Shown here one piece after another: positions 18,556 through 35,329 of a stretch of DNA of 36,616 bases (positions are counted from its first letter, which is position 1; every line of letters begins with the position of its first letter). The position numbers were made by a program, and so were the translations under genes. Location: contig JANXTB010000371.1 of assembly GCA_025356415.1 (NCBI GenBank), forward strand, positions 1 to 36,616, given 5' to 3'. Below the pieces are notes generated by a model. The model was not told where the DNA came from. It saw only the letters and a program-made list of their open reading frames with translations, and ran no database searches. Source of the stretch: Hyphomicrobiales bacterium (lineage in GTDB: Bacteria; Pseudomonadota; Alphaproteobacteria; Rhizobiales; Beijerinckiaceae).

Positions 18556-19455
18556 ATGGCCGACGACAAGCAGAGCAAGAACAACAAGGCCGGCGCCAAG
18601 GGCCGGCGCGCCTTCGACTTGACGACGGACGACCTGCCCGACGGCGTCGAAAAGCGGGCGCTGCAATCGGGGCGTTTCCCCTATTCGGAAAAGCTGAAGG
18701 GCAAGGCTTACGATAAAGAGCTGCGGCAATTGCAGGTCGAACTCGTGCGCATGCTCGCCAGCGTGAAGAAAAACGGCCAGCGCGTCGTTATCGTGCTCGA
18801 AGGCCGCGACGCCGCCGGCAAGGGCGGCGCCATCAATCGGCTTATCGCCCATCTCAATCCTCGCTCCGCGCATGTGATCGCGCTTTCCAAGCCGACCGAG
18901 ACGGAAGCGGGGCAGTGGTATTTCCAGCGCTATGTCTCCAACATGCCGACAGCCGGGCAAATCGCGATCTTCGATCGCTCCTGGTACAACCGCGCGGGCG
19001 TCGAGCCGGTGTTCGGTTTCTGCACGCCGCAGCAGACAAAGCGCTTTCTTGAAGAAGCGCCGCATGTCGAAGCCATGCTGGCGCGCGACGGCATCCGCCT
19101 CATCAAGATCTTCCTGACAATCGGCCGCGAAATGCAGATGAAGCGGTTGCATGCGCGGTGGCGCGATCCGCTCGCGCGGTGGAAATTGTCCGACATCGAT
19201 TTCAAGGCGATTGAAAAGTGGGACGACTATTCACACGCCTATGACGCCATGCTGGAGGCGACCGACCGCGCCGAGGCGCCATGGACCATCATCCGCGCCA
19301 ATGACAAGCGCCGCACGCGGCTCGAAGTCATACGCCACGTGCTGCTGAGTCTCGATTACGAAGGCAAGGACAAAAAGGCGATTGGCGAGGCCGACGATCG
19401 CATCGTCATCGATGCGCAGGAATATCTGCGCGATGGCGGCGAACCGGACCGTTAG
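18556..19455 (+). CDS. ppk2: Polyphosphate kinase 2 family protein
   Basis: PPK2 enzymes move phosphate between polyphosphate and nucleotides, mostly making NTP or NDP from polyphosphate. Walker A GRDAAGKGG is at 83-91, Walker B with D140-R141 is in IAIFDRSWYNRAGVE, and the lid segment WRDPLARWKLSDID follows. The 299 residues fit a single-domain class I enzyme. The start ATG has aggag at 7 bases; a longer frame to 18505 is not supported. The first 20 residues are lysine-rich and flexible. It is divergent from the PhoR-like kinase, and its stop overlaps the stop of the convergent membrane protein gene by two bases. Confidence 0.93.
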   Translation: MADDKQSKNNKAGAKGRRAFDLTTDDLPDGVEKRALQSGRFPYSEKLKGKAYDKELRQLQVELVRMLASVKKNGQRVVIVLEGRDAAGKGGAINRLIAHLNPRSAHVIALSKPTETEAGQWYFQRYVSNMPTAGQIAIFDRSWYNRAGVEPVFGFCTPQQTKRFLEEAPHVEAMLARDGIRLIKIFLTIGREMQMKRLHARWRDPLARWKLSDIDFKAIEKWDDYSHAYDAMLEATDRAEAPWTIIRANDKRRTRLEVIRHVLLSLDYEGKDKKAIGEADDRIVIDAQEYLRDGGEPDR

Positions 19456-20522
19456 GACTGGTCCTCGTCAGGCCGGCTCATCGCGGCCCGCAGGCTGTTC
19501 CAGCGGCGAATGCTCTCGTTGGCGCCCAGCAGCGCCAGCGCGAGCACGAAAGGCGCGACATAATAAATCATGCGGAACAGCAACAGCGACGCGAACAAGG
19601 CTTCGGGCGATGGCGCGGGCACGGCGTTGAGCATGGTCGCCTCGAAGGCGCCGATGCCGCCGGGCATGTGGCTCGCGATGCCGAGCAGGCACGCGAGAAC
19701 ATAGGTCGCGCAAAAGCTGATGAAATCGAGCCCGTGGCCTGCGGGCAGGATGACGTAGAGCGCGCCCGCCGCACAGCCGAGATCGATGACGCCGAGCGTC
19801 AATTGGCTGAGCGTCAGCGTCAGTCCCGGAAGTTCGAGCCGCAATCCCTGCAGGCTGACGCGGCGATGACCGCGCGACACCCATGCCAGATAGAACATGA
19901 TTGCGAAGAGCACGCCGAGCCCGATCAGCAGATTGACCCAGCCCTTGAGGCGGTTCACCTCCGCGATGGCGTCCGGCTGGATGGTCAACGCGATGCCGAT
20001 GACCAGCGCCATGCCGAGCCAGAAGGTGAGCCCGGCGATCACCGTGAGGCTCGCGACCTTGCCGGCGCTGACGCCGACGCGCGAATAGATCCAGTAGCGC
20101 ACGGTGCCGGCCGTCACCAGCGGGAAGCCGAGCGTGAAGGAGATGGCGTAACTTGTGAACGAGGCGAGCGACGTTGTGCGGTAGGGCACGCGAATGCGCA
20201 ATTGCCGCAAGGCGAGCGCGTCGTAGCCGGTGAGCGCAACATATGAAAGCGCTGTCAGCAGCGCGGCGCCGACGATCTGCTCGAGGCTTGTCGCCGCCAT
20301 CGCGGCGCGCAACTCGCCCCAATGCAGACCCGCGATGGTGCGCCCGAGCACGAAGACCGAGAGCACGAGAATGCAGATGCTGAACCCGGCGCCGATGCGG
20401 CTCCACATGCGGCGGCGGCGCGCCAGATGCGGGTCATCGGGCAGGACGGCAGGAAGCTGCGGCGCATGATCCGCGCCAGCCGGCTTCGCTCCGTCGATTT
20501 CCTCCCGCATGGACCTGGTCAT
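19452..20522 (-). CDS. UPF0104 / MprF-type membrane protein
   Basis: The 356-residue protein has a basic cytosolic N-terminus (LARRRRMWSR) followed by about eight hydrophobic helices. It resembles the flippase part of lysyl-phosphatidylglycerol synthase MprF and the YbhN family. Supporting motifs are SFTLGFPLVTAGTVRYW, SHMPGGIGAFE and FRMIYYVAPF. The C-terminal aminoacyl-transferase domain of MprF is absent, so it probably flips or stabilises a lipid without making it. The start at 20522 has gagg close by; the Met at residue 5 is an alternative. It is separated by about 180 bases from the YfhO-like gene. Confidence 0.85.
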   Translation of the reverse strand: MTRSMREEIDGAKPAGADHAPQLPAVLPDDPHLARRRRMWSRIGAGFSICILVLSVFVLGRTIAGLHWGELRAAMAATSLEQIVGAALLTALSYVALTGYDALALRQLRIRVPYRTTSLASFTSYAISFTLGFPLVTAGTVRYWIYSRVGVSAGKVASLTVIAGLTFWLGMALVIGIALTIQPDAIAEVNRLKGWVNLLIGLGVLFAIMFYLAWVSRGHRRVSLQGLRLELPGLTLTLSQLTLGVIDLGCAAGALYVILPAGHGLDFISFCATYVLACLLGIASHMPGGIGAFEATMLNAVPAPSPEALFASLLLFRMIYYVAPFVLALALLGANESIRRWNSLRAAMSRPDEDQS

Positions 20523-20704
20523 GACGCCTCATTGAAACCGGCGCGCCCAAGCTGAATAAGAGCCGCGCGCGCAACAGGGTTATGGGGGCGCGGGCTTGCG
20601 AGAGCAACCCCTCGAGACTTGCTACGCTCGCGCCAGCGCGTTCACAAAGACCGCCAATTCAGCACCGGCATGCGCGATGGCGCCGCAACGGCGCCAAAGG
20701 CGTG

Positions 20705-23014
20705 TCATTTTCCGGTCCGCGGCCACATATGCGCGGCTGCTTCCGTCACGCTGGCGCGCAGACCGCTGACGGGGTCAAAGAAGAAGCGCACCTGCCGCGC
20801 GCCGGCCGGAATCTCGACTGCGCGGAAGATGACATTGGCGCGCAGCAGAGGCGCGGGCACGCCATCGATTTCGACGCGCCACCACGGATGCCAGACATCG
20901 TTCAACACGAGCCAGCCGCCATCGGGAGCATCGACGCCGACGCGCACCTGCGTGTTTTCATAATTAAGGATACGCGCCGATCCGGGACGGCGCGCGCGGC
21001 CGGCATTCGCATCGGCGCCCTCAAGCAACACCGTCTCGCGCGGATCGAAACTCGGCCATTGGCCTGTCTTCATCAGCTCCGAAAAATTCGCAGGCCGCGC
21101 CTTGGTGGCGAACAGCACGCGCGGCAGCGCGCGCGGGTTCTCGTAGACATAGGCGTCCTTGGTGCGCGCGACTTCGATCAAGTCGCCGCGCCGCAGCTTC
21201 TTGTCGAACTCGTTGAGCGGCACGCCCGAGGCGATGAAGCGCAGGCCGAGCATGTCGGCGAGCAGCGACCTGTATGACGGAAACAGCGGCGAGAAATGCC
21301 TCTGGTCGACAACCGCGACATGATCCTGCGCGCCAGTCGCTTCCGCATACCAGGCGAGGCGCACGGGGTTGTAACCAAGATCATGCTGGAAGCCGTGGAT
21401 CATGCCCAAGTTCGGCCAGTCAAAACCGACTGCCGGTAGCTCGACGCGATCGATGCGGTCGGGCCCTGCGGTTTCGGCTAGGCGATGGCGCAGCAGCGAG
21501 ATCGTCTCGTTCGACGTGTCGGCGCGCATGATGTCGTAATGGGCGGGCGGCAGCGCTGTGGATTCATTCGGGCCGTTGCTGACCGCCAGATCGGCGACCA
21601 TGCAGAGGCCTATGACAACCAGCACGCTCGTGCCGTAGTCGGGCGCGAACCGGCGCGCCAGCATGAGAACGGTGATGGAAACCAGCAGGCTCGCGCCGCC
21701 AATGGCGAGCGGAAGTGTCGCCTGCTCGATGCGGCCCTTCGACCACGCCACCGCGACAGCGCCGCCGAACGCCAGGAGGACCGCCAGCACCGGCAGCACG
21801 ATCTGCGGCCACGAAAGGCTGCGCAATTGCGTGATGTAGAGATGCACGGCGTAGCCAGCGAGGATCGACGCAATGGCGCAGAGCGGAAAGGTCGCATCCG
21901 ACGGGCGGCGGAAAAGATCTGCGCCGGGCAGGTGGAAGGCGAGTTTGAAGAAGGGCGTGTAATCGCCGAGCGCATACAGCAGCATGACGACGAGCGCGAC
22001 AAGCAACGCCGCCATTTCGCGCCGGAATAGCGCGGCGGCAGCGAGTCCGAAGCCCAGAAACCCAACCAGCGGCAGCGCGCCAAAATAGATCGTCGCCATG
22101 TTGCGCGCGAGATTGTAATCGCCGCCCCAAATGGCCTGGTATGGCGGGCCCCAGAAGTTGTTGAGCGGGCCGTCGACGCCATAGAGATTCGCCACCACGG
22201 CCGTCAGCAATGCAGCGGGATGCAACGAGCCGCGCGCCGCGCCCTGAAAGTCGATCAGCACGCGGTTCGATTCTCCCGCGAGCACGATCGTCAAGGCGAT
22301 CGGCACGGCGATGACGGCGACGCCCGCGAGCGTGGCGAGCGCCAGCGCCTTGAATGTTGCGCGCGTCGGCGCCTCGAAGATTCCGCCGATGGCGTAGATC
22401 GCCAGCACGATCGCGCAGAGATAGGCGATCTGGTCTCGTCCGATCAGCATCAGCCCCGCGAACACGCCCGCGAGAAGTCCGTTGAGCAAGCCGCCGCGCT
22501 GAAACACGCGCGCCAGAAAGTAGAACGTGATGGCGAAAAACGAGAGGCTCAGCACTTCGCCGACATGCTGCAGGCGCCACGCTGCGGAACCGCCGAACGC
22601 GAAGCTCAATCCGGCGACGAGCGCGCCCGCGGGATGCCAGTTGCGATCGCGAAAATGCAGCATGATGGCTGCGCCGCCGAGCGCCAGCATTGCAAACACG
22701 GTGGCGTCCGCGGCGATGAATCCGGGATCGCGGACGAATTTCGCCACGAACAGAAATGGCAGCGTGAAGATCAGCGATTGCGGATCGGCGAGATGGAACG
22801 AACCCGCGAAGACATCCGGATTCCAGAACGGTGAATCGCCATTCTGGAGCGACTTCGCCAGAAACACGAGCTGCGGATAAAAATGCGCCTTGGCGTCCCA
22901 TGGAATGGTGTAACGGCCCGAAAGCCAAGGCGAGGCAAGCGTAAGCGTCGCGACAGCGAAGATGAAAAACGCAGCCGGGTAAAGGCTGCGCGCGCCTGGC
23001 GTCCGCTCATGCAT
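20705..23014 (-). CDS. Large YfhO-like membrane protein (GT-C type)
   Basis: The 769 residues comprise about 12 helices in the first 480 and a C-terminal periplasmic part of about 280. The first loop has the GT-C type pattern YTIPWDAKAHFYPQ (35-48), with an Asp just after helix 1, and later WNPDVFAGS. This matches the YfhO family, membrane glycosyltransferases that modify lipid-linked or wall polymers. The start has aagga at 8 bases, and the stop of ribA lies only 4 bases upstream, so the two genes are one operon. A link between a membrane sugar transferase and ribA is unexpected; it may be only positional. Confidence 0.8.
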   Translation of the reverse strand: MHERTPGARSLYPAAFFIFAVATLTLASPWLSGRYTIPWDAKAHFYPQLVFLAKSLQNGDSPFWNPDVFAGSFHLADPQSLIFTLPFLFVAKFVRDPGFIAADATVFAMLALGGAAIMLHFRDRNWHPAGALVAGLSFAFGGSAAWRLQHVGEVLSLSFFAITFYFLARVFQRGGLLNGLLAGVFAGLMLIGRDQIAYLCAIVLAIYAIGGIFEAPTRATFKALALATLAGVAVIAVPIALTIVLAGESNRVLIDFQGAARGSLHPAALLTAVVANLYGVDGPLNNFWGPPYQAIWGGDYNLARNMATIYFGALPLVGFLGFGLAAAALFRREMAALLVALVVMLLYALGDYTPFFKLAFHLPGADLFRRPSDATFPLCAIASILAGYAVHLYITQLRSLSWPQIVLPVLAVLLAFGGAVAVAWSKGRIEQATLPLAIGGASLLVSITVLMLARRFAPDYGTSVLVVIGLCMVADLAVSNGPNESTALPPAHYDIMRADTSNETISLLRHRLAETAGPDRIDRVELPAVGFDWPNLGMIHGFQHDLGYNPVRLAWYAEATGAQDHVAVVDQRHFSPLFPSYRSLLADMLGLRFIASGVPLNEFDKKLRRGDLIEVARTKDAYVYENPRALPRVLFATKARPANFSELMKTGQWPSFDPRETVLLEGADANAGRARRPGSARILNYENTQVRVGVDAPDGGWLVLNDVWHPWWRVEIDGVPAPLLRANVIFRAVEIPAGARQVRFFFDPVSGLRASVTEAAAHMWPRTGK

Positions 23015-23018
23015 TTAA

Positions 23019-24149
23019 TCAGTCCTTGGCCCCACCGTGGGCAGGCGGCGCCGTTTCAAACATATCGATGAAATGTCCCGCGCGATCCCGCTTCGACGCG
23101 AGATAACGCACATTTTGATCCGTGAGCCGCCCGACGATGCGCTGGTCCTCTGCAACAATGAGGCCCGCATCTTCAAGCGCCGCGATCTTGACCGGATTGT
23201 TGGTCATGACGCGCACAGTGGTGACGCCCAATTGCTTCAGCATCAGCCCCGCGAAGGCGAAACCACGCTGGTCGTGATCAAAGCCCAGCACCTCGTCGGC
23301 GTCATAGGTGTCAAAGCCCTGCGCCTGCAAACGATAGGCGCGGATCTTGTTCGAGATGCCGTTGCCGCGGCCTTCCTGATCGAGATAGAGCAGCACGCCG
23401 CCGCCGTTCTCGGCCATGAATTTCGCGGTGTGGCGCAATTGGTCGCCGCAATCGCATTTGAGCGAGCCGAACAGATCGCCAGTCAGGCAGGCCGAATGCA
23501 GCCGCACCGTCACCGGGCCTGAGAAATCCGGCTTGCCGACGATCACGGCCACCTGGTCGCGCAAGCCTTCGCCGCCGCGGAAGATCACAAATTCGCTATC
23601 GGTCGCGCCCTCTAGCGGCACCGGCGCGCGCGAAATGAGCTTCAACTCATGCTGTTCTTCAGCCCGGTATTGCACAATCGCCGCGCTCGAGACGCGCACG
23701 AGGCCGGCCACTTGCGGCGCCTCCGCGTCGATCGGCACGGTGACGACGGCGGGCAGGACGAGCGCCAGCCGGGCCAGTTCCAGCGCCGCCTCGTCGGCGG
23801 GCGTAAGGCAGGCGACAGGCGCGTCGATGCGGCCTTCCAGCTCGACGGAGAGCGCAGAAACGCGGGCGAGTTCGATGGTGGGGAGCGCGATGAACCCGGC
23901 GGCTTGGCGCTCGATGCCAAGGCGGCGCAGGCGCGGCGCGGCCAGCACGAGACGGGCGCGGCCTTGCGCCAGGAGCGCGAGCTCCGCGACAAGCGCGTCG
24001 TCCAGCGCCTCGAAGCTCGCGGCGATCATCGCGCCCTGCGGCGCGGTCACGAGCACGGGACGGCCGGACCTGACTTCTGCTATAGCGCGTTCGACCTGGA
24101 TATGGCCGAAGGCTGCGCCTCCGATTAGACTAGGCTTCCGATCCTTCAC
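23019..24149 (-). CDS. ribA: GTP cyclohydrolase II with an N-terminal extension
   Basis: RibA opens GTP to 2,5-diamino-6-ribosylamino-pyrimidinone phosphate, the first step to riboflavin. The catalytic half starts near residue 180. Zinc cysteines are C221, C232 and C234 in HSACLTGDLFGSLKCDCG, and QEGRGNG is at 258-264. The first 170 residues (numbered from GTG 24149) are weakly like the RibB half of RibBA proteins, but without its active-site motifs, as in other alphaproteobacterial RibA. The GTG at 24149 has gaggg close upstream; a TTG at 24173 is the alternative. It is divergent from a stand-alone RibD-type reductase, 106 bases apart, and I saw no FMN riboswitch between them. Confidence 0.9.
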   Translation of the reverse strand: MKDRKPSLIGGAAFGHIQVERAIAEVRSGRPVLVTAPQGAMIAASFEALDDALVAELALLAQGRARLVLAAPRLRRLGIERQAAGFIALPTIELARVSALSVELEGRIDAPVACLTPADEAALELARLALVLPAVVTVPIDAEAPQVAGLVRVSSAAIVQYRAEEQHELKLISRAPVPLEGATDSEFVIFRGGEGLRDQVAVIVGKPDFSGPVTVRLHSACLTGDLFGSLKCDCGDQLRHTAKFMAENGGGVLLYLDQEGRGNGISNKIRAYRLQAQGFDTYDADEVLGFDHDQRGFAFAGLMLKQLGVTTVRVMTNNPVKIAALEDAGLIVAEDQRIVGRLTDQNVRYLASKRDRAGHFIDMFETAPPAHGGAKD

Positions 24150-24255
24150 GCGACCCTCACAAGTCGGGAACAACGATCCGAGCAGGACCTCGCCTTCCCA
24201 ATCCCTCCCCTGCCCCGCTCATAACCTATATCTGGGGCGGAAACTAGGAGCGTCC

Positions 24256-24978
24256 ATGAGACCTGCCGCAGAACGCAGCATAGAGCCGTCGATGCCGGAC
24301 CCGTTCGCACCCTTCCGGTGCGCCGATCCTGCGCGGCCGTTCGTGGTGGCGCAACTCGGCCAGTCGCTGGACGGGCGCATCGCCACCATTACGGGCATGA
24401 GCAAATACATCAACGGCGCGCCCGCGCTCGATCACCTGCACCGCATTCGCGCGGAAGTGGATGCTGTCGTAGTCGGCGCCGGCACGGTCGTCGCCGACGA
24501 TCCGCAATTAACCGTACGGCGCGTACCCGGCCGCAGCCCCGCGCGCGTTGTCATCGATCCGACCGGGCGGCTGAAGAGCCCCGCGAAATGGCACGAACAC
24601 AATGGCGTGAGCTGTTTCGTCATCACAGCCTGTTCGGTCGAGTCGCTGCCGCCGGGCCTGCAACACATCCGGCTGCAAGCCCACCACGGCGCCATCGCGC
24701 CGCGCGCGATCGTCGATGCGCTGTTCGCGCGCGGCATGAAAAAAATCCTGATCGAGGGCGGCGCGCGCACCATCTCGTCCTTCATCGACGCGGGCTGCAT
24801 CGACCGCCTGCATCTGCTCTTCGCGCCGATCATCATCGGCTCGGGCCGCAACGGCCTCGACCTCGCGCCGATCTCGGACCTGTCGGGCGCGCTGCGCCCC
24901 AAGACCGTGCTCTATCCGCTCGGCGAACGTGAATTTTTGATCGATTGTGATTTGCGACAGACGGAAGGCGGGGGCTGA
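24256..24978 (+). CDS. RibD C-terminal-type pyrimidine reductase (no deaminase domain)
   Basis: The 240-residue protein matches only the reductase half of RibD. Motifs are SLDGRIA (37-43), GAGTVVADDPQLTVR (75-89), KILIEGGARTISSF (163-176) and FAPIIIGSG (189-197). Such stand-alone enzymes (archaeal and fungal type) reduce the ribosylaminopyrimidine product of GTP cyclohydrolase with NADPH. In bacteria they also occur as general RibD-family reductases. The ATG has aggag at 5 bases; the long open frame upstream crosses ribA and is not coding. The cytochrome b561 gene follows after one base. The position opposite ribA supports a shared pyrimidine or pterin pathway. Confidence 0.88.
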   Translation: MRPAAERSIEPSMPDPFAPFRCADPARPFVVAQLGQSLDGRIATITGMSKYINGAPALDHLHRIRAEVDAVVVGAGTVVADDPQLTVRRVPGRSPARVVIDPTGRLKSPAKWHEHNGVSCFVITACSVESLPPGLQHIRLQAHHGAIAPRAIVDALFARGMKKILIEGGARTISSFIDAGCIDRLHLLFAPIIIGSGRNGLDLAPISDLSGALRPKTVLYPLGEREFLIDCDLRQTEGGG

Positions 24979-24979
24979 C

Positions 24980-25540
24980 ATGAGCGCATTGGCGGAGGGC
25001 AAGGGCCGGCTGGAATATTCAGCCGTTTCGAAATGGCTGCATTGGACGACGGCCATCATCATCTTCGGGTTGATCCCGGCGGGTCTCGTTCTCGACGACT
25101 TGCCCGAAGGCCCGGTGCAGAATCTCGGCTACGACCTGCATCGCTCATTCGGTTTCATCGTGCTCTGCCTCGCGCTGATGCGGCTTGCGGTGCGCGGGGT
25201 TTTCGGCGCACCCGCCGTCTATGCGGGGCTGACGCCTTTTGAACAGCGCGCGTCAGGCTTCGTGCATCATGCGCTTTATGTGCTGATTGTCGTGACGCCG
25301 CTGCTGGGCTGGGCGGCGACATCGGCCTATCCGGTGGCCATCAATGTGTTCTGGCTGTTCACACTGCCGCCGCTGGCGCCGGAAAGCGAATGGCTTTCGA
25401 AGCTGTTGTTCAAAGCGCATGAACTGTCTGCGTTTCTCATCATTGCGCTGCTCGTCGCGCATATCGGCGGGGCGCTGATGCATCGCGTGGTGAAGCGCGA
25501 TGGCGTGATGGACCGAATGCTGCCGCGCCGGAAAAGCTGA
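24980..25540 (+). CDS. Cytochrome b561 family membrane protein
   Basis: The 186-residue inner-membrane di-heme protein has four helices. Candidate heme histidines are H21 (KWLHW), H54 (YDLHRSFGF), H147 (KAHELSAF) and H161 (VAHIGGALMH). Related proteins move electrons from quinol to periplasmic or membrane acceptors. The ATG lies one base after the stop of the reductase gene, so the two are coupled. Its stop abuts that of the convergent methyltransferase gene. Whether it supplies electrons to the neighbouring pathway is unknown. Confidence 0.9.
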   Translation: MSALAEGKGRLEYSAVSKWLHWTTAIIIFGLIPAGLVLDDLPEGPVQNLGYDLHRSFGFIVLCLALMRLAVRGVFGAPAVYAGLTPFEQRASGFVHHALYVLIVVTPLLGWAATSAYPVAINVFWLFTLPPLAPESEWLSKLLFKAHELSAFLIIALLVAHIGGALMHRVVKRDGVMDRMLPRRKS

Positions 25541-26380
25541 TCAGGCAGGCCGCGCGAACAGATCGACATGGCCGATGACGCAAGCCTCCGCGCTCTCCCG
25601 CGCGGCGCGCCATGAGGCGATGACGGACTCCCCGACAAGGCCGGTTTCCGCCACGGCTTGCGCGGCGCCGCGCGCCAGTTCGACCATCAGCTCGCGTTGT
25701 TGCGGACCCAGCCGCCAGGGGCTCGGCGCGCTGGTGACGCGGTAGCCCTGCTCTTCAAGCGCGCGCGCCAGATGCGCGGCGGCGAAGGGGCCGGCCGCGG
25801 GACCAAAGCCCTTGTCGCGCTGCTGGTGCGCGTGAAAGGCCGCGAGCATGGGCGCATCGCTCGCATGCGACGGCGACCATTGTTCGTGTCCGTCGTAAGT
25901 AAGGATCGCGTAGAGCGGCAGCCGCCTGCGCGCAAGCGCGGCGCAGAAATCATCGATCCAGTGCGCCGACACGAGATCGAAAAACGCCGTGGCGGTGACG
26001 AGATCCGCATGTCGATCCAGCACGCCTTCGAAATCGCGCGCAAGATCGGCCTGTTCGAGGCGCAGCGTGATGTCATGCGCGCCCTTTTTCAGGCGCATGT
26101 CGGCGTCTTCCGTTTCGGCGCGATCGGCCCAGGAGACGAGGCGCCCGCGTGCGGCGTCGAGAAGATGACGATCCCAATCGACCAACCGCCAGATCTGGCG
26201 CGGCGGCAGATGAGCGGCCATGGCGCGCAGGTTCGAGCCTGTGCCGCAGCCAAGATCCGCCAGCGTAATGGCGGCGTGGCCTGCGAAATGCGCGAAGACG
26301 TCGCGCGCGACCTCCTCGGCGCGGGCCGCATGATCGGCGGGTTCGCGCAGCGCGAGCCAGTCGGGAGAAAAGCCGGTCAT
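25541..26380 (-). CDS. Class I SAM-dependent methyltransferase
   Basis: The 279 residues show the SAM-binding motif LADLGCGTGSN (40-50) and the acidic end of the next strand in RLVDWDRHLL. A later segment, LVTATAFFDLVSAHW, is typical of small-molecule methyltransferases. The substrate is not evident. The start overlaps the stop of the glycosyltransferase gene as ATGA, so this is the last gene of a four-gene operon (dehydrogenase, pterin-synthase-like, glycosyltransferase, methyltransferase). A role in tailoring the product of that operon is inferred. Confidence 0.88.
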   Translation of the reverse strand: MTGFSPDWLALREPADHAARAEEVARDVFAHFAGHAAITLADLGCGTGSNLRAMAAHLPPRQIWRLVDWDRHLLDAARGRLVSWADRAETEDADMRLKKGAHDITLRLEQADLARDFEGVLDRHADLVTATAFFDLVSAHWIDDFCAALARRRLPLYAILTYDGHEQWSPSHASDAPMLAAFHAHQQRDKGFGPAAGPFAAAHLARALEEQGYRVTSAPSPWRLGPQQRELMVELARGAAQAVAETGLVGESVIASWRAARESAEACVIGHVDLFARPA

Positions 26381-27414
26381 GCGCTTGTTCCTTCAATGCT
26401 GGCGAAAACTCCCGCCACACTGCGCGCCGTATCATCCCATGACGGCAGCGCCTGTCCAGCCTCCCACGCGGCGTTGGCCAGCTGCGTCCGCAAGCGCTCG
26501 TCGCCGATGAGGCGCGACAGCGAGTCCCGCAAAGCGACGGCATCGCCCGGCGCTACTTTCAACGCTGCGCCGGTGGGCAGCGTTTCCGCAGCCGCGCCGC
26601 CGGTCGTTGCGACGATGGGCAAGCCGCGAACCATGGCCTCGGCCAGCGCCATGCCGTAGCCCTCGTAGAGCGAGGGCATGACAAAAATATCTGCGGATAC
26701 ATAAAGCGCCTGCAGCGCAGCGTCATCGACTTCGCCCGCAAGCGTGATGCGGTCGCCCAAACCCGCAGCCTCGACCTTGGCCGCAAGTGCGCGCGCGTGA
26801 TCGGGCGCCCATGCGAGCGAGCCCGCGATGGTGAGGCGCCAATCGAGGTTGGCGATCCCCGCCAACGCATCGACCAGCACGTCATGCCCCTTGCGCGGCG
26901 TCACGGAGCCCACGGCGAGCAAGTGCGGCGTCCCTTGCGAACCACGCGCACGAGGCGCGCGTGCGACGCCGGGAATGGCGACCGTGATCTGCGAGGTCGC
27001 GACATCATAGTCCGCGGCAAGCGTCTGCTTCGTGCTCGCGCTCGTGACGATGACATGCGCGGCGTGCGAAAGCGCAAGCTGCTCGCTCGCCGCAAGCCGC
27101 TGCGCATCGGCGGCGGACAGACCCGTCTCCAAAGCCAGCGGATGATGCACGAGCGCGACGATCTTGCGCGGCAGCGCGCGCAGGAGTTCAGGCGTGAAGT
27201 CGCCGAACGCCAGCCCGTCGATCAGCAAAACCGCGTCAGGGTCCACACCGCGCAGCAGGCGCTCCGTCTCGCGCAGATCGTCCGGCGATGGGGCCGGAAA
27301 CCCTTGCGGCAGAGGGAGATGCGCCATGTCGATGCGCGCCATGACCTCGCGATCATAGGCGTAGCCGCCGGTGAGCGAGGAAAGATCGCCGGGGATGGCG
27401 AAGACGGCGCGCAT
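26377..27414 (-). CDS. GT4 family glycosyltransferase
   Basis: The 345-residue GT-B fold enzyme has the second-domain motifs VGSVTPRKGHDVL (168-180, with the nucleotide-contacting R173 and K175) and the E-x7-E pair E251/E259 in SLYEGYGMALAEAM. There are no membrane helices, and the N-terminus (MRAVFAIPGDLSS) starts the first Rossmann strand. It lies 5 bases after the pterin-synthase-like gene and overlaps the methyltransferase gene by four bases. In the company of pterin-type genes it may glycosylate a small metabolite, though GT4 enzymes also act on lipids and polysaccharides. Confidence 0.9.
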   Translation of the reverse strand: MRAVFAIPGDLSSLTGGYAYDREVMARIDMAHLPLPQGFPAPSPDDLRETERLLRGVDPDAVLLIDGLAFGDFTPELLRALPRKIVALVHHPLALETGLSAADAQRLAASEQLALSHAAHVIVTSASTKQTLAADYDVATSQITVAIPGVARAPRARGSQGTPHLLAVGSVTPRKGHDVLVDALAGIANLDWRLTIAGSLAWAPDHARALAAKVEAAGLGDRITLAGEVDDAALQALYVSADIFVMPSLYEGYGMALAEAMVRGLPIVATTGGAAAETLPTGAALKVAPGDAVALRDSLSRLIGDERLRTQLANAAWEAGQALPSWDDTARSVAGVFASIEGTSA

Positions 27415-27419
27415 GTGCG

Positions 27420-27821
27420 TCAGGCGACCGGGCCTTCAAACCACGCGCGGGCGACATGCGATTCATGCAGCGTGACGCGGATCTTCGAGATGCCCTCGCC
27501 GCCGGGGCCGAGCTCGCCCTTCCGCGCCGCAGCCGCCATGGCGTCGAAGATGTATTTCGACAGGAATTCCGTCGTCGTCTGGCGTCCTGCAAATTGCGGG
27601 AGCGCGTCGAGATTCTGGTAATTGATCGGCCCGAGCGTCGCCTTCAGGGCGTCACTTGCGCGACCGATATCAACCACCACTTCATGCTCGTTCAGCGTCT
27701 CGCGAAAGAAAGCGACATCGACCACGAAAGTCGCGCCATGCATGTTCTGCGCGGGACCAAAGAATTCGCCCTTGAAAGAATGGGCGATCATGATGTGCTC
27801 TCGCACCTCGAGTGCATACAT
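27420..27821 (-). CDS. 6-pyruvoyltetrahydropterin synthase-like (QueD family) protein with altered active site
   Basis: At 133 residues the length and fold pattern match QueD/PTPS. H14 (MIAHSF) and H28 (NMHGATF) align with two of the three zinc histidines, but the third (HGH) is A30. The catalytic Cys four residues before the HGH is A24, and the Asp-His of the LDH motif reads N67-Y68 in GPINYQNLD. The Glu that anchors the pterin (E120 in TLHESHVARAWF) and D51 are kept. So it may bind a pterin without doing the usual lyase chemistry. Alignment is by eye. It lies between the BchC-like dehydrogenase (15 bases) and a glycosyltransferase (5 bases), inside one operon. Confidence 0.82.
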   Translation of the reverse strand: MYALEVREHIMIAHSFKGEFFGPAQNMHGATFVVDVAFFRETLNEHEVVVDIGRASDALKATLGPINYQNLDALPQFAGRQTTTEFLSKYIFDAMAAAARKGELGPGGEGISKIRVTLHESHVARAWFEGPVA

Positions 27822-27836
27822 GGAATGAAACCTCTC

Positions 27837-28841
27837 TCAGTAACGCACGACAGTCGCCAGCGCGGGCGCTGCAGGATTAAATATGTCAAACAGCGCAGCC
27901 GGCAATGCGTCGAACGTGACTTCACTGGTGATCAGCTTGTCGAGCACGTCATCCTGCAAAAGATCGAGCGCCTTGCGCAGGCGGCGCGCATAGGTCCAGC
28001 GGGGCCGGCGCGAAGGCGCCACCTGCCCGACTTGCGATGAAATCAGCTTCAGCCGCTTGCTGTGGAAGGCGCCGCCGAGCGGCACCGACACCCACTTGTC
28101 GCCATACCAGCTCAATTCGACGATCGTCGCCTCGGAGCCCGCGGCGCCAAGCGCTGTGACGAGCCCGGCCTCCTGCGCGCTGGCGTGGAACACCACGTCT
28201 GCATCCCCCGCCAGCGCGCCCGGCGTGCGGAATTCCGCGCCCAGCGCCGTCACCAGCTGCGAGCGCGCCGTCTCGACATCGACGACAACGACTTCCGTCC
28301 CCGGCAGACGCACTGCGAGGAAAGCAACCAGCAGGCCGATGAGCCCCGCGCCGACAATCACAATCCTGTCACCCGGCCCCGCGCCGGAATCCCAAAGCGC
28401 GTTGAGCGCCGTCTCCATGTTCGCCGCGAGCGCGGCGCGGCGCAGCGGCAGGTTCTCGGGGATCGCGACCAGCCGGTCCACCGGCGCCACGAAGCGCGTC
28501 TGGTGCGGATGCAGCGCGAAAACCGGGACGCCGAGCCAGTCCTTGGGTCCCTGCTCGACAATGCCGACCGCGCAATAGCCGTATTTCACGGGATAAGGGA
28601 ACTCGCCTTCCTGAAACGGCGCCTTCATGCGGTCGAATTCGGAAAGCGGCACGCGGCCTTCATAGACGAGGCGTTCGGTGCCGCGCGAAATGCCGGACCA
28701 CAGGGTAAGAACCAGCGCCTCGCCGGGGCCGGGCTCGGGCACGTCGACAGGGCGCAGCTCGGCGCGCGCCTTGGCTGTGTACCAGAGCGCCTGGTTGCCG
28801 GGGCGCGTTTGTGAGTGAGTCTTTTTCGTCTCGACCGTCAT
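27837..28841 (-). CDS. Medium-chain dehydrogenase, BchC-like
   Basis: The 334-residue MDR-fold protein has a Rossmann motif VIVGAGLIGLL (161-171) with D188 at the end of the next strand, which suggests NAD rather than NADP. The N-terminal segment SGISRGTERLVYEG (49-62) and FALHPHQTRFV (108-118) resemble bacteriochlorophyllide dehydrogenase BchC. The cysteine usually bound to catalytic zinc is a Ser here, and the four-cysteine structural zinc loop is absent. The start ATG has gaggg at 7 bases. The open frame extends far upstream antisense to opgH and is not used. It is the first gene of the pterin-type operon. No photosynthesis genes are nearby, so a chlorophyll role is unlikely. Confidence 0.86.
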   Translation of the reverse strand: MTVETKKTHSQTRPGNQALWYTAKARAELRPVDVPEPGPGEALVLTLWSGISRGTERLVYEGRVPLSEFDRMKAPFQEGEFPYPVKYGYCAVGIVEQGPKDWLGVPVFALHPHQTRFVAPVDRLVAIPENLPLRRAALAANMETALNALWDSGAGPGDRIVIVGAGLIGLLVAFLAVRLPGTEVVVVDVETARSQLVTALGAEFRTPGALAGDADVVFHASAQEAGLVTALGAAGSEATIVELSWYGDKWVSVPLGGAFHSKRLKLISSQVGQVAPSRRPRWTYARRLRKALDLLQDDVLDKLITSEVTFDALPAALFDIFNPAAPALATVVRY

Positions 28842-28925
28842 GCGCACACCCTCTAATGTCCCGCCCGGCTTAGCAACAGATTTTGGCGGCTGATTTTGGC
28901 GATTTCGCCCGCAGGAGAAAGCTTG

Positions 28926-30740
28926 ATGTCGTCGGCGCCTATGCGTGAAAACCTGACGCCAGCCGGCCTGCAACCCGCCGCCATGCTGCATCGCCGACGC
29001 CGCGTTGCGCTTGCGGTGAATTTCGCGATTTACGCCGCGCTGCTGTGGTGGCTCGCCTCGATCCTCGGCGATCAGGGCTGGAGCGCAATCGACGTCGCCA
29101 TGTTCATCTGCTTCGCCATCGCCGCGCCGTGGAGCGTGATTGGCGTCTGGAACGCTTTGCTCGGCCTGTGGCTGCTGCACGGCGGCGATGCCGCACGCCA
29201 GCATGTCATGCCGTTTGCGTCGGCGGGCGACAGCCAGGAGCCGATCACGCAGCGCACCGCCATCGTCATGACCGTGCGCAATGAAGATCCGGCGCGCGCC
29301 ATCGCGCGGCTCGAGACGATGATGCTGTCGATGGCGCAGGCGGGCGACGACTCGGCCTTCGCTTATTTCGTCCTGAGCGACACGAACGACGAGAGCACAG
29401 CACACGAGGAAGAGCGCGCCGTGGCGGCGTTGAAAGCGCGCCATCCTCAAGTCGCCGCGCGGCTGCATTATCGCCGCCGCCTGTCTAACGAGGGTTTCAA
29501 GGCCGGCAATGTGCGCGACTTCTGCCTGCGTTGGGGCCACGACTTTGAATTCATGTTGCCGCTCGACGCCGACAGCCTGATGTCTGGTGAGACGATCTTC
29601 CGCATGGTGCGCATGGGCCAAGCCTGGCCGAAGCTCGGCATCCTGCAGAGCCTCGTTGTTGGCGCGCCCGCGACATCGGGCTTCGCGCGTGTGTTCCAGT
29701 TCGGCATGCGCCACGGCATGCGGCCTTACACGATGGGCGGCGCCTGGTGGGCTGGCGATTGCGGGCCGTTCTGGGGCCACAATGCGCTGGTGCGCGTCGC
29801 GCCGTTTCGCGATCATTGCGACCTGCCGCTGCTTCCCGGAAAGCCGCCGCTCGGCGGACAGATCCTGTCGCACGATCAGGTCGAGGCGGTGCTGATGCGC
29901 CGCGCCGGATTCGAGTGCCGCGTGCTGCCCGAAGAAAGCGGCTCGTACGAGGATAATCCGCCGACCCTGCTGGAATTCACGCGCCGAGATCTGCGCTGGT
30001 GCCAGGGCAACATGCAATATTGGGCTCTGCTAGGTTTGAAGAACATCCAGCCGATGAGCCGCTTCCAGCTGCTCTGGGCGATCATGATGTTCATCGGCGT
30101 GCCGGCCTTCACTCTGCTGATTGCGCTCGCTGCGCTGAAGCCGCTGGATGGTGAGGACATGGCGCGTTTTCCGGCGCACTCCGCACTCGGCCTCTATGGC
30201 GTCTGGCTTTTCATGTATCTCGCGCCGAAGCTCGCGGGCTTCGCCGACATCGCGCTCACGCGCGGCGGGCTTGCGCGTTACGGCGGCGGCGCGCGCTTTG
30301 CATCGGGCGCGCTGTTCGAACTCGCCTTCTCGTTCCTGCTCGGCGCCGCAACGACATTGCGCACGGGCCTGTTCATGATCGGCTTGCTGTTCGGGCGTTC
30401 CGTCATCTGGAGCGGACAGTCGCGCGATGCGCATGAGCTGTCCTATGCAACAGCATTCGTGGGGCTTTGGCCGCAGCTCGTCTTCGGACTTTATCTCTAC
30501 GCGATGGCCGCGTGGCTGGCGCCGTCGCTCATCTTGTGGTCGGCGCCTTTGACTCTTGGTTATCTCTTCGCGATTCCGTTCGCGGTCGAGACGTCCAGCC
30601 CGCGCTTCACGGCTTTCCTGCAGCGCACCGGCCTTTGCGCTATCCCCGAGGACCTTGCGCGGCCACCGCTTCTGGCGATGCTGGAACAAGTCTCCGCTTC
30701 CGCTCCTTCTTCTCCACCGCAGACATTGGAACACGCATGA
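28926..30740 (+). CDS. opgH: Glucans biosynthesis glucosyltransferase H (short form)
   Basis: OpgH is the inner-membrane GT2 enzyme that builds the beta-glucan backbone of osmoregulated periplasmic glucans. The 604-residue protein has two N-terminal helices, a cytosolic GT2 domain with D152 (VLSDTND), the DAD motif (214-216), D317 (SHDQVE) and the RxxRW box RDLRWCQGN (354-362), then about six helices. It is shorter than the 847 residues of E. coli OpgH, as is usual in alphaproteobacteria. The ATG has aggag 7 bases before it. The next gene overlaps by four bases. opgG, its common partner, is not in the window. Confidence 0.92.
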   Translation: MSSAPMRENLTPAGLQPAAMLHRRRRVALAVNFAIYAALLWWLASILGDQGWSAIDVAMFICFAIAAPWSVIGVWNALLGLWLLHGGDAARQHVMPFASAGDSQEPITQRTAIVMTVRNEDPARAIARLETMMLSMAQAGDDSAFAYFVLSDTNDESTAHEEERAVAALKARHPQVAARLHYRRRLSNEGFKAGNVRDFCLRWGHDFEFMLPLDADSLMSGETIFRMVRMGQAWPKLGILQSLVVGAPATSGFARVFQFGMRHGMRPYTMGGAWWAGDCGPFWGHNALVRVAPFRDHCDLPLLPGKPPLGGQILSHDQVEAVLMRRAGFECRVLPEESGSYEDNPPTLLEFTRRDLRWCQGNMQYWALLGLKNIQPMSRFQLLWAIMMFIGVPAFTLLIALAALKPLDGEDMARFPAHSALGLYGVWLFMYLAPKLAGFADIALTRGGLARYGGGARFASGALFELAFSFLLGAATTLRTGLFMIGLLFGRSVIWSGQSRDAHELSYATAFVGLWPQLVFGLYLYAMAAWLAPSLILWSAPLTLGYLFAIPFAVETSSPRFTAFLQRTGLCAIPEDLARPPLLAMLEQVSASAPSSPPQTLEHA

Positions 30741-31741
30741 GATCCCTTCTCCTCGCACTTTCCTGCACGCTCGCGCTCGGCGTGGCGCCGGCCCTCGCGC
30801 AGCCGCGCACGCCGACGCCCGCGCCGGCGCCCTTCACGCCGCCGACCAAGGGCATCGATCCGAACGAGCTCGCGGTGAATGTCGCCAACAAGTCGACGCC
30901 GGTGCTGTGCGCCGAGAAGGACAATATCGAGCTGACATTCTCGTCGCCGCTCGTGCGTCAGTTCCGCATTCAAGCCGTGCATCCGGCCTATATCGGCACG
31001 ATCAACATCGATCGTTATGCGCCCGACTTCACCTCCTGCGACATGTCGCAGGATCCGGTGTTCAAGTCCGACGCGCGCCGCATCACCTTCTGGGAGACGC
31101 CGGAATTCTGGCTGACGGGCTACACCTATCCGTCCTTCTGGCGACCGGCGAACACCGTGATGCGCGTCGGCAATCGCGAAGAAAAGGGGCTGCACATGGT
31201 GCAGCTCTGGATGAAGTATCGCGAGCGCGCTGAAGAGGTGCTGGTGTTTTATCCGCCGGATGGCTACTGGCGCGCGCGCCCGCTGCCCTTCGCGGACATG
31301 CGCTGGACCGCTTACGGTTCATCGTTCCTCGTCGGTCCGGTGGAGACGCAGCAGCGGCCCATCGTCGATCTGAAATCCATCGACTTCGATCCTGACAAGA
31401 TGACGTTCACGCTCGGCTTCGCGCGCGGCGGCTCGGCGACCATCAAGCTCGATACGATCGATCAGGAACGCATGATCCTCGATGTCGCAATCTCGGCCGA
31501 TGCCCCGAAAAACTATCCCTTCGCCAGCATGCGCTCGATGTATGCGACCGAATTCAATTCGGATGTGGCGCGCGTCGCCTGGCGCGAGAAAGGCGTCGAC
31601 GCCTGGGGCGAGTCGCCCGTGCTGGGTTACAAAGGCGGCCCGCTGACGGAGATCTGGGCGGGGCGCGTCATTCCCTCGCTGCACAACAAGAGCGCGCCCG
31701 ACATGGTCTTCGGCCATTTCAGCGACAAGCCCGCCCCGTAG
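30737..31741 (+). CDS. Secreted protein of unknown function linked to opgH
   Basis: The 334 residues start with a clear signal peptide (MRSLLLALSC..., cleavage likely after ALA at 19-21) and a Pro/Thr-rich linker (22-35). The mature part is rich in aromatic residues and predicted beta structure, with two cysteines (VLCAEK and FTSCDM) that could form a disulfide. It is shorter than OpgG (about 500) and lacks recognisable OpgG/OpgD motifs. The ATG overlaps the opgH stop as ATGA, so the two are co-translated and a periplasmic role in glucan export or modification is plausible. I do not recognise the family. Confidence 0.8.
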   Translation: MRSLLLALSCTLALGVAPALAQPRTPTPAPAPFTPPTKGIDPNELAVNVANKSTPVLCAEKDNIELTFSSPLVRQFRIQAVHPAYIGTINIDRYAPDFTSCDMSQDPVFKSDARRITFWETPEFWLTGYTYPSFWRPANTVMRVGNREEKGLHMVQLWMKYRERAEEVLVFYPPDGYWRARPLPFADMRWTAYGSSFLVGPVETQQRPIVDLKSIDFDPDKMTFTLGFARGGSATIKLDTIDQERMILDVAISADAPKNYPFASMRSMYATEFNSDVARVAWREKGVDAWGESPVLGYKGGPLTEIWAGRVIPSLHNKSAPDMVFGHFSDKPAP

Positions 31742-31748
31742 CTGATCC

Positions 31749-32726
31749 ATGATGCAAGACGAAACCACGCCCACGAAAACCCCGCGCTGGCCCGCCATCG
31801 ATGCGGCGCGCGGGGTCGCGTTGCTGGCGATGTTTGTCTTTCACATCTGCTGGGACCTGACATTCTTCGGCCTCGCGCCGCAAACGCTTGAAACTGATCC
31901 GCGCTTCCACGCTTTCGGCCATTCCATCGCAGCGGCCTTCATCGGACTAGCGGGCGTTGGCCTCGCGCTGGCGGCGCGAAATGGCCTCGACTGGAACCAG
32001 GCGCTGCGGCGCTTGGCGAAGATCGGCGCCGCCGCGCTCGGCATCACGATCGCGACTTACTTCATCTTCCCTGACTCCTATATTTTCTTCGGCATCCTGC
32101 ATCTGATCGCCGTCGCGGGTCTACTGTCGCTGCCGTTCATCGCCGCGCCTTCATGGCTCGTTGCGCTGGTCGCGGTGATCGCGCTTGCCTTGCCGTTGTA
32201 TGTGGGCGGCCCCGCGTTCAATGGCGATGCGCTGCTGTGGCTCGGTCTCGGCACGAAGATCCCGCTCACAAACGACTGGCGCCCGCTGCTGCCGTGGTTT
32301 GGCGTGATGCTCATCGGCCTGCTGCTCGGCCGCATGATCCTCGCGCGCGGCCTGCCCGCGTGGCTCGCGAATTGGCGCCCAAGCATGGCGCCGGCAAAAG
32401 CGCTCGTCTGGGGCGGGCGCCATTCGCTGCTGCTCTATCTCGTGCACCAACCAATCTTCATCGGCATCGTTTTCGTCATCTCGATTCTTCTAGGTCCTCG
32501 CTATACGGCGAGCATCGAGACGTTCCGCGCGACCTGCCAGCAACAATGCCTGACCTCTGGCGGACAGGCCGCGCTGTGTACGCGCGCCTGCGGCTGCATC
32601 GCCGACGGGTCGGAGGCGCAAGGCATCGGCGGCGCGGTTGCACAGAACCGGTTGTCGAGCGAGCAGCGGCAGAAATTCGACGAGATCACCAAGGTCTGCA
32701 TCCGCCGCGAGCCGCTGGCGCCCTAA
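31749..32726 (+). CDS. DUF1624 acyltransferase-like membrane protein with Cys-rich tail
   Basis: The 325-residue protein has about eight helices. DUF1624 proteins are related to heparan-alpha-glucosaminide N-acetyltransferase. Family-like parts are [21 protein letters not shown] (about 16-36), [16 protein letters not shown] (175-190) and [13 protein letters not shown] (223-235). After the last helix an extra soluble tail of about 70 residues contains six cysteines (C263, C267, C277, C281, C283, C317). The spacing suggests disulfides or a metal site in the periplasm. The gene follows the secreted protein by 7 bases. Its stop overlaps the fumC stop. Acylation of periplasmic glucans is an inference from gene order. 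Confidence 0.85.
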
Positions 32727-34129
32727 GCGTCCGGCGCCAGCATGGCCTCGGGCCGCACCACGGCGTCAAAGTCTTCAGCCGTGACATAACCCAGCGCCAC
32801 AGCCTCTTCTCGCAAGGTCGTGCCCTTCTCGTGCGCGCTTTTGGCGACTTTCGCCGCCTTGTCGTAACCAATCCTCGGCGCAAGCGCGGTGACCAGCATC
32901 AGCGAGCGCGAGAGCAGATCGGAAATGCGCTCGCGGTTCGCCGTAATGCCTTCCACGCAATTCACGCGGAAGGATTGGCAGGCGTCCGCCAGCAGCGAGA
33001 TGCTTTCAAGCAGCGCAAAGGCGAGCACCGGCTTGAAGACATTGAGCTCGAGATGCCCCTGCGAGCCCGCGAACGTCATGGTCGTCTGATTGCCGAACAC
33101 GCGCGCGCACACCATGGTCATGGCTTCCGCCTGCGTGGGGTTCACCTTGCCGGGCATGATCGATGAGCCGGGCTCGTTTTCCGGCAGCGCAATTTCGCCA
33201 AGACCCGAGCGCGGCCCGCTGCCGAGAAGACGAAGATCGTTGGCGATCTTGAACAGCCCGGTCGCCGCAGCGCTCAATGCGCCATGCACATTGACCAGAG
33301 CATCATGAGAGGCGAGCGCCTCGAACTTGTTGAGCGCGGTCGTGAACGGCAGGCCGGTCGCCTCCGCCATGCGCGTGGCGAAGGCTTCCGCGAACCCCTG
33401 CTTGGCGTTGAGCCCGGTGCCCACCGCCGTGCCGCCCTGCGCCAGCGGATAGAGATCGGGCAACACGTTGCGGATGCGCGCGGCTGCGAAAGCGCATTGC
33501 GCCGCATAGGCCGAAAATTCCTGTCCCAGAGTGACCGGCGTCGCGTCCTGCAAATGCGTGCGGCCGATCTTGATGATGTCGGCGAAGTCCTGCGCCTTGC
33601 TGGCAAGCGCAACGCCGAGGCCGTCGAGCGCCGGCAGCAGATGCGCGGCGATTTCGCGCGCGGCGGCGATGTGGATCACCGTCGGGAATGTGTCGTTGGA
33701 GGATTGCCCATAGTTGACGTGATCGTTGGGATGCACCGGCGATTTGGTCCCGCGCGCCGCGCCCAGCAATTCATTGGCGCGATTGGCGATGACTTCATTG
33801 GCGTTCATGTTGGTCTGTGTGCCGGACCCCGTCTGCCAGATAACCAGCGGAAACTCGCTGTCATGCACGCCGTCCGCCACTTCCTGCGCGGCCGCGATGA
33901 TCGCATCCGCCAGGCGTGGATCGAGCACGCCGAGATCGCGGTTCACTTCGGCTGCGACGCGTTTCTGAAGCCCAAGCGAGCGGACGAGCGGCGCCGGCAT
34001 GCGCTGGCCGCCGATGCGGAAATTCTGCAGGGAGCGTTGCGTCTGCGCGCCCCAATAGCGGGACGCGGGCACGTTGATGGGACCGAAACTATCGGTCTCA
34101 ACGCGGATATTTTCGGATTCGTCAGCCAT
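32723..34129 (-). CDS. fumC: Class II fumarate hydratase
   Basis: FumC interconverts fumarate and malate in the TCA cycle and is the iron-free, oxidant-resistant form. The 468 residues carry [13 protein letters not shown] (101-113), the catalytic H192 in [10 protein letters not shown], and the superfamily signature [13 protein letters not shown] from 321 with the catalytic serine. Length is normal. The start has ggag 9 bases upstream. It is convergent with the DUF1624 gene, overlapping by four bases at the stops, and is followed on its upstream side by ecfG. Confidence 0.97.
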
Positions 34130-34788: not shown

Positions 34789-35144
34789 TCGTTATCCTCG
34801 CTTTTGCCGCTGGACGCGCCAACGTTCTTCGCACTTGCGGCGGCAGGGCCGTCGAGCGCGTTGAGAAGATCGAGAAAGCGATCGGGGATGGGCTGGTTGA
34901 GCACGTCGTCATAGACCGACTTCAACTGCCGTTCGATATAGGTCTTCACATTTGGCCCGGTTTTGACGCCGCCGCCCTCAATGACCTGCATGTTTTCGGC
35001 TCGCGACTGTGTTTCGCCCAAGGATTGGCCCTGTGCACGAGGCGCCGCGGCGGAAGCAGGCGCGACGCGACCACCCACCGGCCGAACCGCGGGCCGGGCG
35101 GATATCGCGCTCGGCTTCTTCCTCGTCCCGGTTTTATCGTCCAT
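34785..35144 (-). CDS. nepR: Anti-sigma factor NepR
   Basis: NepR binds EcfG in unstressed cells. The conserved core is YIERQLKSVYDDVLNQPIPD (69-88) followed by RFLDLLNAL. The protein has 119 residues, about twice the roughly 60 of typical NepR. The extra part is a long disordered N-terminus rich in Ala, Pro and Arg plus a 20-residue tail. The ATG has ggagggg at 6 bases. It overlaps ecfG by four bases, which keeps the anti-sigma and sigma levels linked. Confidence 0.93.
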   Translation of the reverse strand: MDDKTGTRKKPSAISARPAVRPVGGRVAPASAAAPRAQGQSLGETQSRAENMQVIEGGGVKTGPNVKTYIERQLKSVYDDVLNQPIPDRFLDLLNALDGPAAASAKNVGASSGKSEDNE

Positions 35145-35225
35145 ACATTACCCCTCCAGCGCCGGATGGCCGTCCGGCCTGTACCAATCGCCGCGCCCCA
35201 TCTACTCTGCGGCGATCCTGGCGAC

Positions 35226-35251
35226 AACGCCCCTTGCATCGCTTTGGTTCC
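35226..35251 (-). promoter_or_regulatory. EcfG-type promoter for nepR-ecfG
   Basis: On the minus strand GGAAC (35251-35247) and CGTT (35229-35226) are 17 bases apart, a perfect match to the EcfG consensus. Transcription would begin about 80 bases before the nepR start, which gives positive feedback of the stress response. Confidence 0.85.
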
Positions 35252-35261
35252 GATAGGGACT

Positions 35262-35286
35262 GGAACCAAACGGCGTTTTCAGGGTT
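35262..35286 (+). promoter_or_regulatory. EcfG-type promoter for phyR
   Basis: GGAAC (35262-35266) is followed after 16 bases by GGTT (35283-35286), one base off the consensus CGTT. It lies 44 bases before the phyR start. The -35 elements of the two divergent promoters are only 10 bases apart. Confidence 0.7.
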
Positions 35287-35329
35287 AAATGGACCTAAGC
35301 TCTGCGGTTTTTTTTTAGGGGCGTCAAGC

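Follow-up and report, generated by a model that had tools for sequence, protein, structure and literature searches.

The window analysed here is the whole 36,616-nucleotide stretch of contig JANXTB010000371.1 from a Hyphomicrobiales bacterium of the Beijerinckiaceae (GenBank assembly GCA_025356415.1), and our subject is a locus at its positions 23019-28841, in which a first-pass annotation made from the letters alone had named seven genes and read them as a candidate source of a modified pterin or ribitylaminopyrimidine. Open reading frames together with family profile searches recovered all seven:

23019..24173, minus strand: RibA, a GTP cyclohydrolase II of the long PRK08815 type (NCBIfam NF006456, 484 bits against a cut-off of 464)
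24292..24978, plus strand: stand-alone RibD_C-type reductase, here called RED (Pfam RibD_C, E 2.9e-38; start taken as the ATG at 24292)
24980..25540, plus strand: cytochrome b561 (PF01292, E 2.7e-28)
25541..26380, minus strand: class I S-adenosylmethionine methyltransferase (MT) of its own subfamily (PF13649, 27.2 bits against a cut-off of 27)
26377..27414, minus strand: GT4 glycosyltransferase (GT; PF13692, E 2.2e-29)
27420..27821, minus strand: PTPS-like T-fold protein of the FGPAQ subfamily (PF01242, E 2.5e-20)
27837..28841, minus strand: BchC-like medium-chain dehydrogenase (ADH; BchC model TIGR01202, E 2.2e-13, 50 bits against a cut-off of 291)

The last four genes form a minus-strand operon in the order ADH-PTPS-GT4-MT that is convergent with the plus-strand pair of RED and b561 (this is what the annotation had meant by 'facing'), and RibA on the minus strand is divergent from RED. 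MT and GT overlap by 4 bases, and gaps of 5 and 15 bases separate GT from PTPS and PTPS from ADH, respectively, in agreement with the 4-15 base spacings or overlaps first reported. No ribD deaminase, ribB, ribH, ribE or FolE was found by Pfam among 20 scanned window proteins (genes at 19452-34129, some open reading frames lying outside the scan), which upholds the earlier view that this is not an ordinary riboflavin operon.

The operon is present in alphaproteobacteria, gammaproteobacteria and actinobacteria. PTPS, GT and MT stand in the same order in 19 of the 20 loci first compared (the twentieth, L026, was taken in on a marginal hit), with ADH there too in 18, locus L030 stopping short of it. 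The PTPS-like protein occurs in 34 of 36 genomes of the same genus (in one, G016, as a 43-residue fragment) and, at E ~1.9e-50 or better, in 5 of the 24 genomes drawn from the order's other families, with a sixth, marginal hit in G056 (E 9.5e-4). A scan of named genomes confirmed at least 585 relatives, and among the 80 relatives listed are those of Methylocystis, Methylosinus, Alsobacter, Chelatococcus, Microvirga, Methylobacterium and Salinarimonas. Moreover, 20 plasmid records carry a match, and in six of the eight inspected the operon itself is plasmid-borne (Methylosinus, Agrobacterium, Rhizobium, Thiodictyon, Streptomyces fungicidicus and Microbacterium); operon genes in the inspected records bear the names of queuosine or riboflavin enzymes. 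In Methylosinus trichosporium OB3b the plasmid is pOB3b1, and a RibD-family gene lies on it as well.

The reductase tracks the operon closely. In an even draw of 398 Pseudomonadota genomes, the same set being used for the PTPS-like profile and for the RED search, the profile matches 27 genomes, and RED orthologues (at least 268 bits) occur in 24 genomes from 11 families, all of them within those 27 carriers and none among the other 371 (Fisher's exact p 1.5e-35, uncorrected for relatedness); the carriers without RED are G439, G449 and G145. Together with the retained gene order this supports the earlier idea that the set belongs together, and the occurrence of the operon without the reductase in most genomes, which the annotation had named as its own possible undoing, is not what we find. 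RED-like proteins of 156-158 bits in two genomes without the PTPS-like gene, G317 (C31) and G080 (C1), were kept out of the RED count. We also picked 27 genomes that have the operon and no RED nearby and compared them with 20 genomes without the operon: RED lies elsewhere in 11 of the former and is carried by none of the latter, and where it is remote from the operon it still adjoins RibA in 8/11 loci and b561 in 10/11, so that RibA, RED and b561 appear to be mostly a unit that accompanies, yet is separable from, the operon. Neighbours were counted in what we call full-context loci, the 83 of 118 fetched that extend at least 4 kb before and at least 6 kb after the PTPS-like gene (an uneven sample with many close relatives), and there ADH is found in 75, RED in 50, b561 in 42 and RibA in 39.

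The solved structures nearest to RED are the stand-alone reductases 6P8C and 2AZN (M. jannaschii RIB7), and RED belongs to the same sequence family as archaeal and fungal RIB7, the 2,5-diamino-6-ribosylamino-4(3H)-pyrimidinone 5'-phosphate reductase. According to the accessible part of one study (PMC3631187), a Lys at the RibG Lys151 position favours the deaminated substrate, archaea have Asn and fungi Thr there, and a T35K change in yeast RIB7 shifts the substrate preference. In RED this position is Gln in 69 of 71 translations (some genomes being counted under two locus ids), His in one and unmatched in one; like RIB7 it therefore has a non-Lys specificity position, although one filled by Gln and not by Asn or Thr. 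Because Gln stands where a Lys would select the deaminated pyrimidine, we predict from sequence that RED would reduce the undeaminated 2-amino pyrimidine, and since bacterial RibD deaminates first, such a step would divert material from riboflavin; RED, unlike RIB7, probably does not serve riboflavin. The pointer of the first-pass annotation from RibA and the reductase to a GTP-derived pyrimidine is supported.

The window RibA has its zinc cysteines (CLTGDLFGSLKCDC) and also the Tyr of IRAY. Among 17 operon genomes (G000 plus 16 selected because they lack RED), 9 have a match to it above 400 bits, as against none of 20 genomes without the operon, and a PF00925 domain of at least 150 bits is found in 13 of 16 operon genomes versus 3 of 16 non-operon genomes (p 0.0005, uncorrected for relatedness), which links RibA to the operon; it may serve riboflavin here as well. 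The latter role is central to a different explanation, that RibA is a housekeeping enzyme, RED is redundant and the neighbourhood has no product of its own. A second complete rib set and folE, for which a check had been advised, proved partly present: FolE lies elsewhere in the genome, as does a PRK07198-type homologue; the GTP cyclohydrolase domain of RibBA, which is on another contig, lacks the zinc cysteines; and a bifunctional RibD is represented on another contig by its start, cut by the contig end. The zinc cysteines are in fact missing from 28 of 29 RibBA parsed across 30 loci, whether or not these have the operon (G275 being left out). Given this defect in the genome's RibBA, the window RibA may be the only true one besides the PRK07198-type homologue, and on that ground we had first favoured a housekeeping role. 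That role was weakened once none of 20 related non-operon genomes proved to have the long RibA, which is thus not order-wide housekeeping, and both the RibD elsewhere in the genome and the tracking of the PTPS-like gene by RED speak against it as well, leaving an island of plain riboflavin genes highly improbable. We note separately that 13 of the 16 related non-operon genomes (G064, G088, G118, G201, G245, G095, G110, G130, G058, G165, G169, G048 and G051) have no GTP cyclohydrolase II domain of at least 150 bits, and that their parsed RibBA are without the zinc cysteines.

The PTPS-like protein carries the FGPAQ signature (F21-Q25, invariant in the family alignment), and PF00925 and PF01872 both lie in its neighbourhood, as for the FGPAQ PTPS subfamily. 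Among solved structures, that of SCO6650 from Streptomyces coelicolor (PDB 3D7J, E 1.4e-53) comes closest; SCO6650 is a member of the same subfamily which reportedly forms a hexameric T-fold without zinc, triad or PTPS activity and keeps its pterin pocket, no pathway having been given for it. Aligned with human PTPS, the window protein has Ala, Asn, Tyr and Ala in place of the Cys, Asp, His and second zinc His, whereas the Thr-Thr-Glu is kept and so, at the pterin-anchoring place, is a Glu (E120); for these residues we presume the catalytic (Cys, Asp, His), zinc-binding and pterin-anchoring roles of PTPS. The pattern is general among relatives. AQxxHGA is found in 118/118 loci (99 by pattern, 19 by eye) in place of the catalytic Cys followed by HGH (CxxxHGH or CxxxxxHGH) of PTPS and QueD enzymes, TTE or TSTE is kept in all 118, the Glu motif was matched in 113 (the pattern missed 5), and the Asp-His position of the triad reads NY in 93, as in the window, AY in 4, TY in 2, NF in 1 and TF in 1, with 17 unmatched by the pattern. 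With the catalytic residues replaced, PTPS or QueD chemistry is unlikely: although the protein is of the same superfamily as QueD (6-carboxytetrahydropterin synthase), it keeps none of the Cys, HGH and LDH. A second PTPS-family protein of the genome (contig C218) keeps HGH and LDH and has Ser where the Cys of QueD is expected. PTPS chemistry, from which the earlier annotation had reasoned, cannot be assumed for the window protein. The loss of the zinc site and catalytic Cys would also suit a scheme in which RibA and RED act on a ribityl-pyrimidine, the PTPS-like protein merely binds, and the product is not a pterin (deazaflavin-like, lumazine-like or a simple glycosylated pyrimidine), and the lack of FolE among the window genes scanned agrees with it; however, RED predicts an undeaminated ring, which would be a 2-amino ring of the pterin type, and we regard such a product as distinctly unlikely.

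The central FGPAQ family and its RibA/RibD_C neighbourhood are already known. In the accessible text of a 2017 AGeNNT account (PMC5445326), 561 sequences in cluster 62 are described as FGPAQ proteins under the name PTPS-IV, their neighbours including PF00925 and PF01872, and they share both signature and neighbourhood with the window cluster; that text labels PF00925 as FolE2 and names no product, and the operon partners, the RED specificity residue and the variants with MdoH or a CDP-alcohol phosphotransferase described below are found here and not in it. The PTPS-IV label is itself unsettled, since PMC5041015, as far as its accessible part goes, uses it for archaeal F420 (citing unpublished work) and calls PTPS-V unclear. 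No product is reported for the cluster in the literature searched, which covered few subscription papers.

The remaining operon enzymes are less telling as to substrate. BchC is the best NCBIfam model for ADH, but the score is far under the model cut-off. In 15 sequences compared by eye ADH has an invariant SRGTE and GY and no GHE, and so is without the usual zinc ligands, if catalytic Cys plus GHE is, as we take it to be, the zinc alcohol dehydrogenase motif. The nearest solved relatives of the GT4 enzyme are Tll1590, D-inositol-3-phosphate glycosyltransferase and phosphatidylinositol mannosyltransferases, and for both GT4 and ADH the structure searches resolve to family level only. For MT the predicted model is good (pLDDT 96) but the structural matches are generic methyltransferases only, and the attempt to read its substrate from structure was dropped.

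From the gene content, order and co-occurrence and the residue losses and retentions that we observe, we infer the individual reactions, their order and the product as follows. RibA would open GTP to 2,5-diamino-6-ribosylamino-4(3H)-pyrimidinone 5'-phosphate, and RED would reduce this before deamination, in the manner of archaeal and fungal RIB7, to a 2-amino ribityl compound. In a second module the metal-free T-fold of the PTPS-like protein may hold the 2-amino-4-oxo ring through its Thr-Thr-Glu and Glu and assist ring formation or handling to yield a ribityl-pterin-like compound, while the BchC-like dehydrogenase would oxidise an alcohol, GT4 would glycosylate and MT would methylate. Our preferred but tentative reading, to which we give a probability of roughly 0.4, is thus one of two co-selected modules and a single GTP-derived metabolite: RibA and RED would form a side branch of the riboflavin route and supply a ribityl-pterin-like product that carries sugar and methyl groups.

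ADH on the minus strand is divergent, across an 84-base gap, from a plus-strand MdoH-type glucosyltransferase gene. The further features of the window are:

19452..20522, minus strand: LPG_synthase_TM membrane protein (PF03706)
20705..23014, minus strand: YfhO-like membrane protein that lies downstream of RibA and is kept in the neighbourhood within the genus
28926..30740, plus strand: MdoH/OpgH-like membrane glucosyltransferase, part of the conserved neighbourhood in the window's relatives
30725..31741, plus strand: conserved protein after MdoH, of no Pfam family, that looks secreted
31749..32726, plus strand: HGSNAT_cat membrane protein (PF07786), next after the secreted-looking protein
35009-36151, plus strand: PhyR-type general stress response regulator (PF22029, PF22233)

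In the 83 full-context loci MdoH is present in 54, an FkbM methyltransferase in 26, a CDP-alcohol phosphotransferase in 16, the flippase-like LPG_synthase_TM protein in 14, and creatininase-family and sulfatase-like genes in 8 each. MdoH occurs alone in 50, the CDP-alcohol phosphotransferase alone in 12, both in 4 (L177 and L183-L185, non-alphaproteobacterial Pseudomonadota) and neither in 17. Such counts fit an envelope glycan or glycolipid locus, in which GT4, MT, ADH, MdoH and the membrane proteins make or modify a periplasmic glucan or lipid, the T-fold of the PTPS-like protein has been put to a new use, and RibA-RED provides a ribityl-containing substituent or meets a separate need; that the core is retained with MdoH but no RED in, among others, some Methylobacterium (L103, L111) fits it too. 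Against this, RED is never found without the PTPS-like gene in the even draw, the retained pterin-binding residues point to a ring substrate, and no annotated MdoH lies near the Streptomyces fungicidicus, Microbacterium and Thiodictyon loci, and we hold an envelope locus of this kind to be unlikely. For the ribityl-pterin-like reading itself, cytochrome b561 and the membrane partners that differ between lineages (MdoH, or a CDP-alcohol phosphotransferase often with LPG_synthase_TM) suggest a membrane- or envelope-associated end product.

As to an osmoregulated periplasmic glucan locus, MdoH is present in the window, a protein cluster (c15) that is OpgG by appearance only occurs in 6/83 loci, and the Pfam scan of 20 window proteins showed no MdoG. 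The run at 28926-32726 of MdoH, secreted-looking protein and HGSNAT-type protein recurs in the genus and is a possible glucan operon. In L105, L154, L155 and L170 a CDP-alcohol phosphotransferase and a sulfatase-like gene stand on the ADH-divergent side, the place taken by MdoH in most other alphaproteobacterial loci, with RibA or FkbM between in three of them, an apparent module swap. The CDP-alcohol phosphotransferase was considered as a universal step and rejected, as 20 genomes of the window's family gave just two weak hits, at 42-45 bits where orthologues score 197-314. The LPG_synthase_TM family is also found near the cluster in Rhizobiaceae and actinobacteria, a family-level match that does not imply orthology. 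For the creatininase-family gene the best model is MftE, below cut-off, with the archaeal deformylase ArfB a weak further hit. Had it been a deformylase, the RibA beside it was expected to be without the IRAY Tyr; of 24 RibA taken for this motif, all but three (L105, L119 and L155) were parsed, and among those beside creatininase only the Streptomyces one has Met there while the parsed proteobacterial ones keep Tyr, which does not support the expectation as a general rule. RibA with Met at this place is presumably of the formyl-retaining SCO6655 type.

Several observations weigh against the reading of a RibA-RED branch feeding a ribityl-pterin-like product, and the first-pass interpretation is only partly supported. 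In some genomes the operon persists although RED or the long RibA is missing: 16 of the 27 operon genomes without a nearby RED have none anywhere (some are incomplete, and in G145 the contig ends nearby), and 7 of these 16 are also without a match to the window RibA at E 1e-30. RibA without RED is seen in 6 full-context loci and b561 without RED in 12, and two Streptomyces plasmids (L157:9001-9426, L160:9001-9399) carry an FGPAQ PTPS gene without the operon alongside. At residue level, the Gln of RED matches neither the archaeal nor the fungal residue, and at least two relatives of the PTPS-like protein (L158, L179) retain the triad Asp but not the His. Finally, a genome search found no CDP-alcohol phosphotransferase orthologue in the window's genome, and the deformylase idea is unsupported in proteobacteria because the RibA beside creatininase keeps its Tyr there.

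Taken together, the cluster resembles an assembly line for a small molecule made from GTP, a side road off vitamin B2 synthesis. At its boldest, and we think this improbable as a whole, it could be a widespread unnamed GTP branch in which a bacterial RIB7-type reduction leads to an N8-ribityl-pterin, glycosylated, methylated and delivered to the envelope as a membrane-associated redox cofactor serviced by cytochrome b561. Whatever its exact product, a cluster kept across alphaproteobacteria, gammaproteobacteria and actinobacteria, from Beijerinckiaceae-like bacteria to a Streptomyces, very likely makes something useful.

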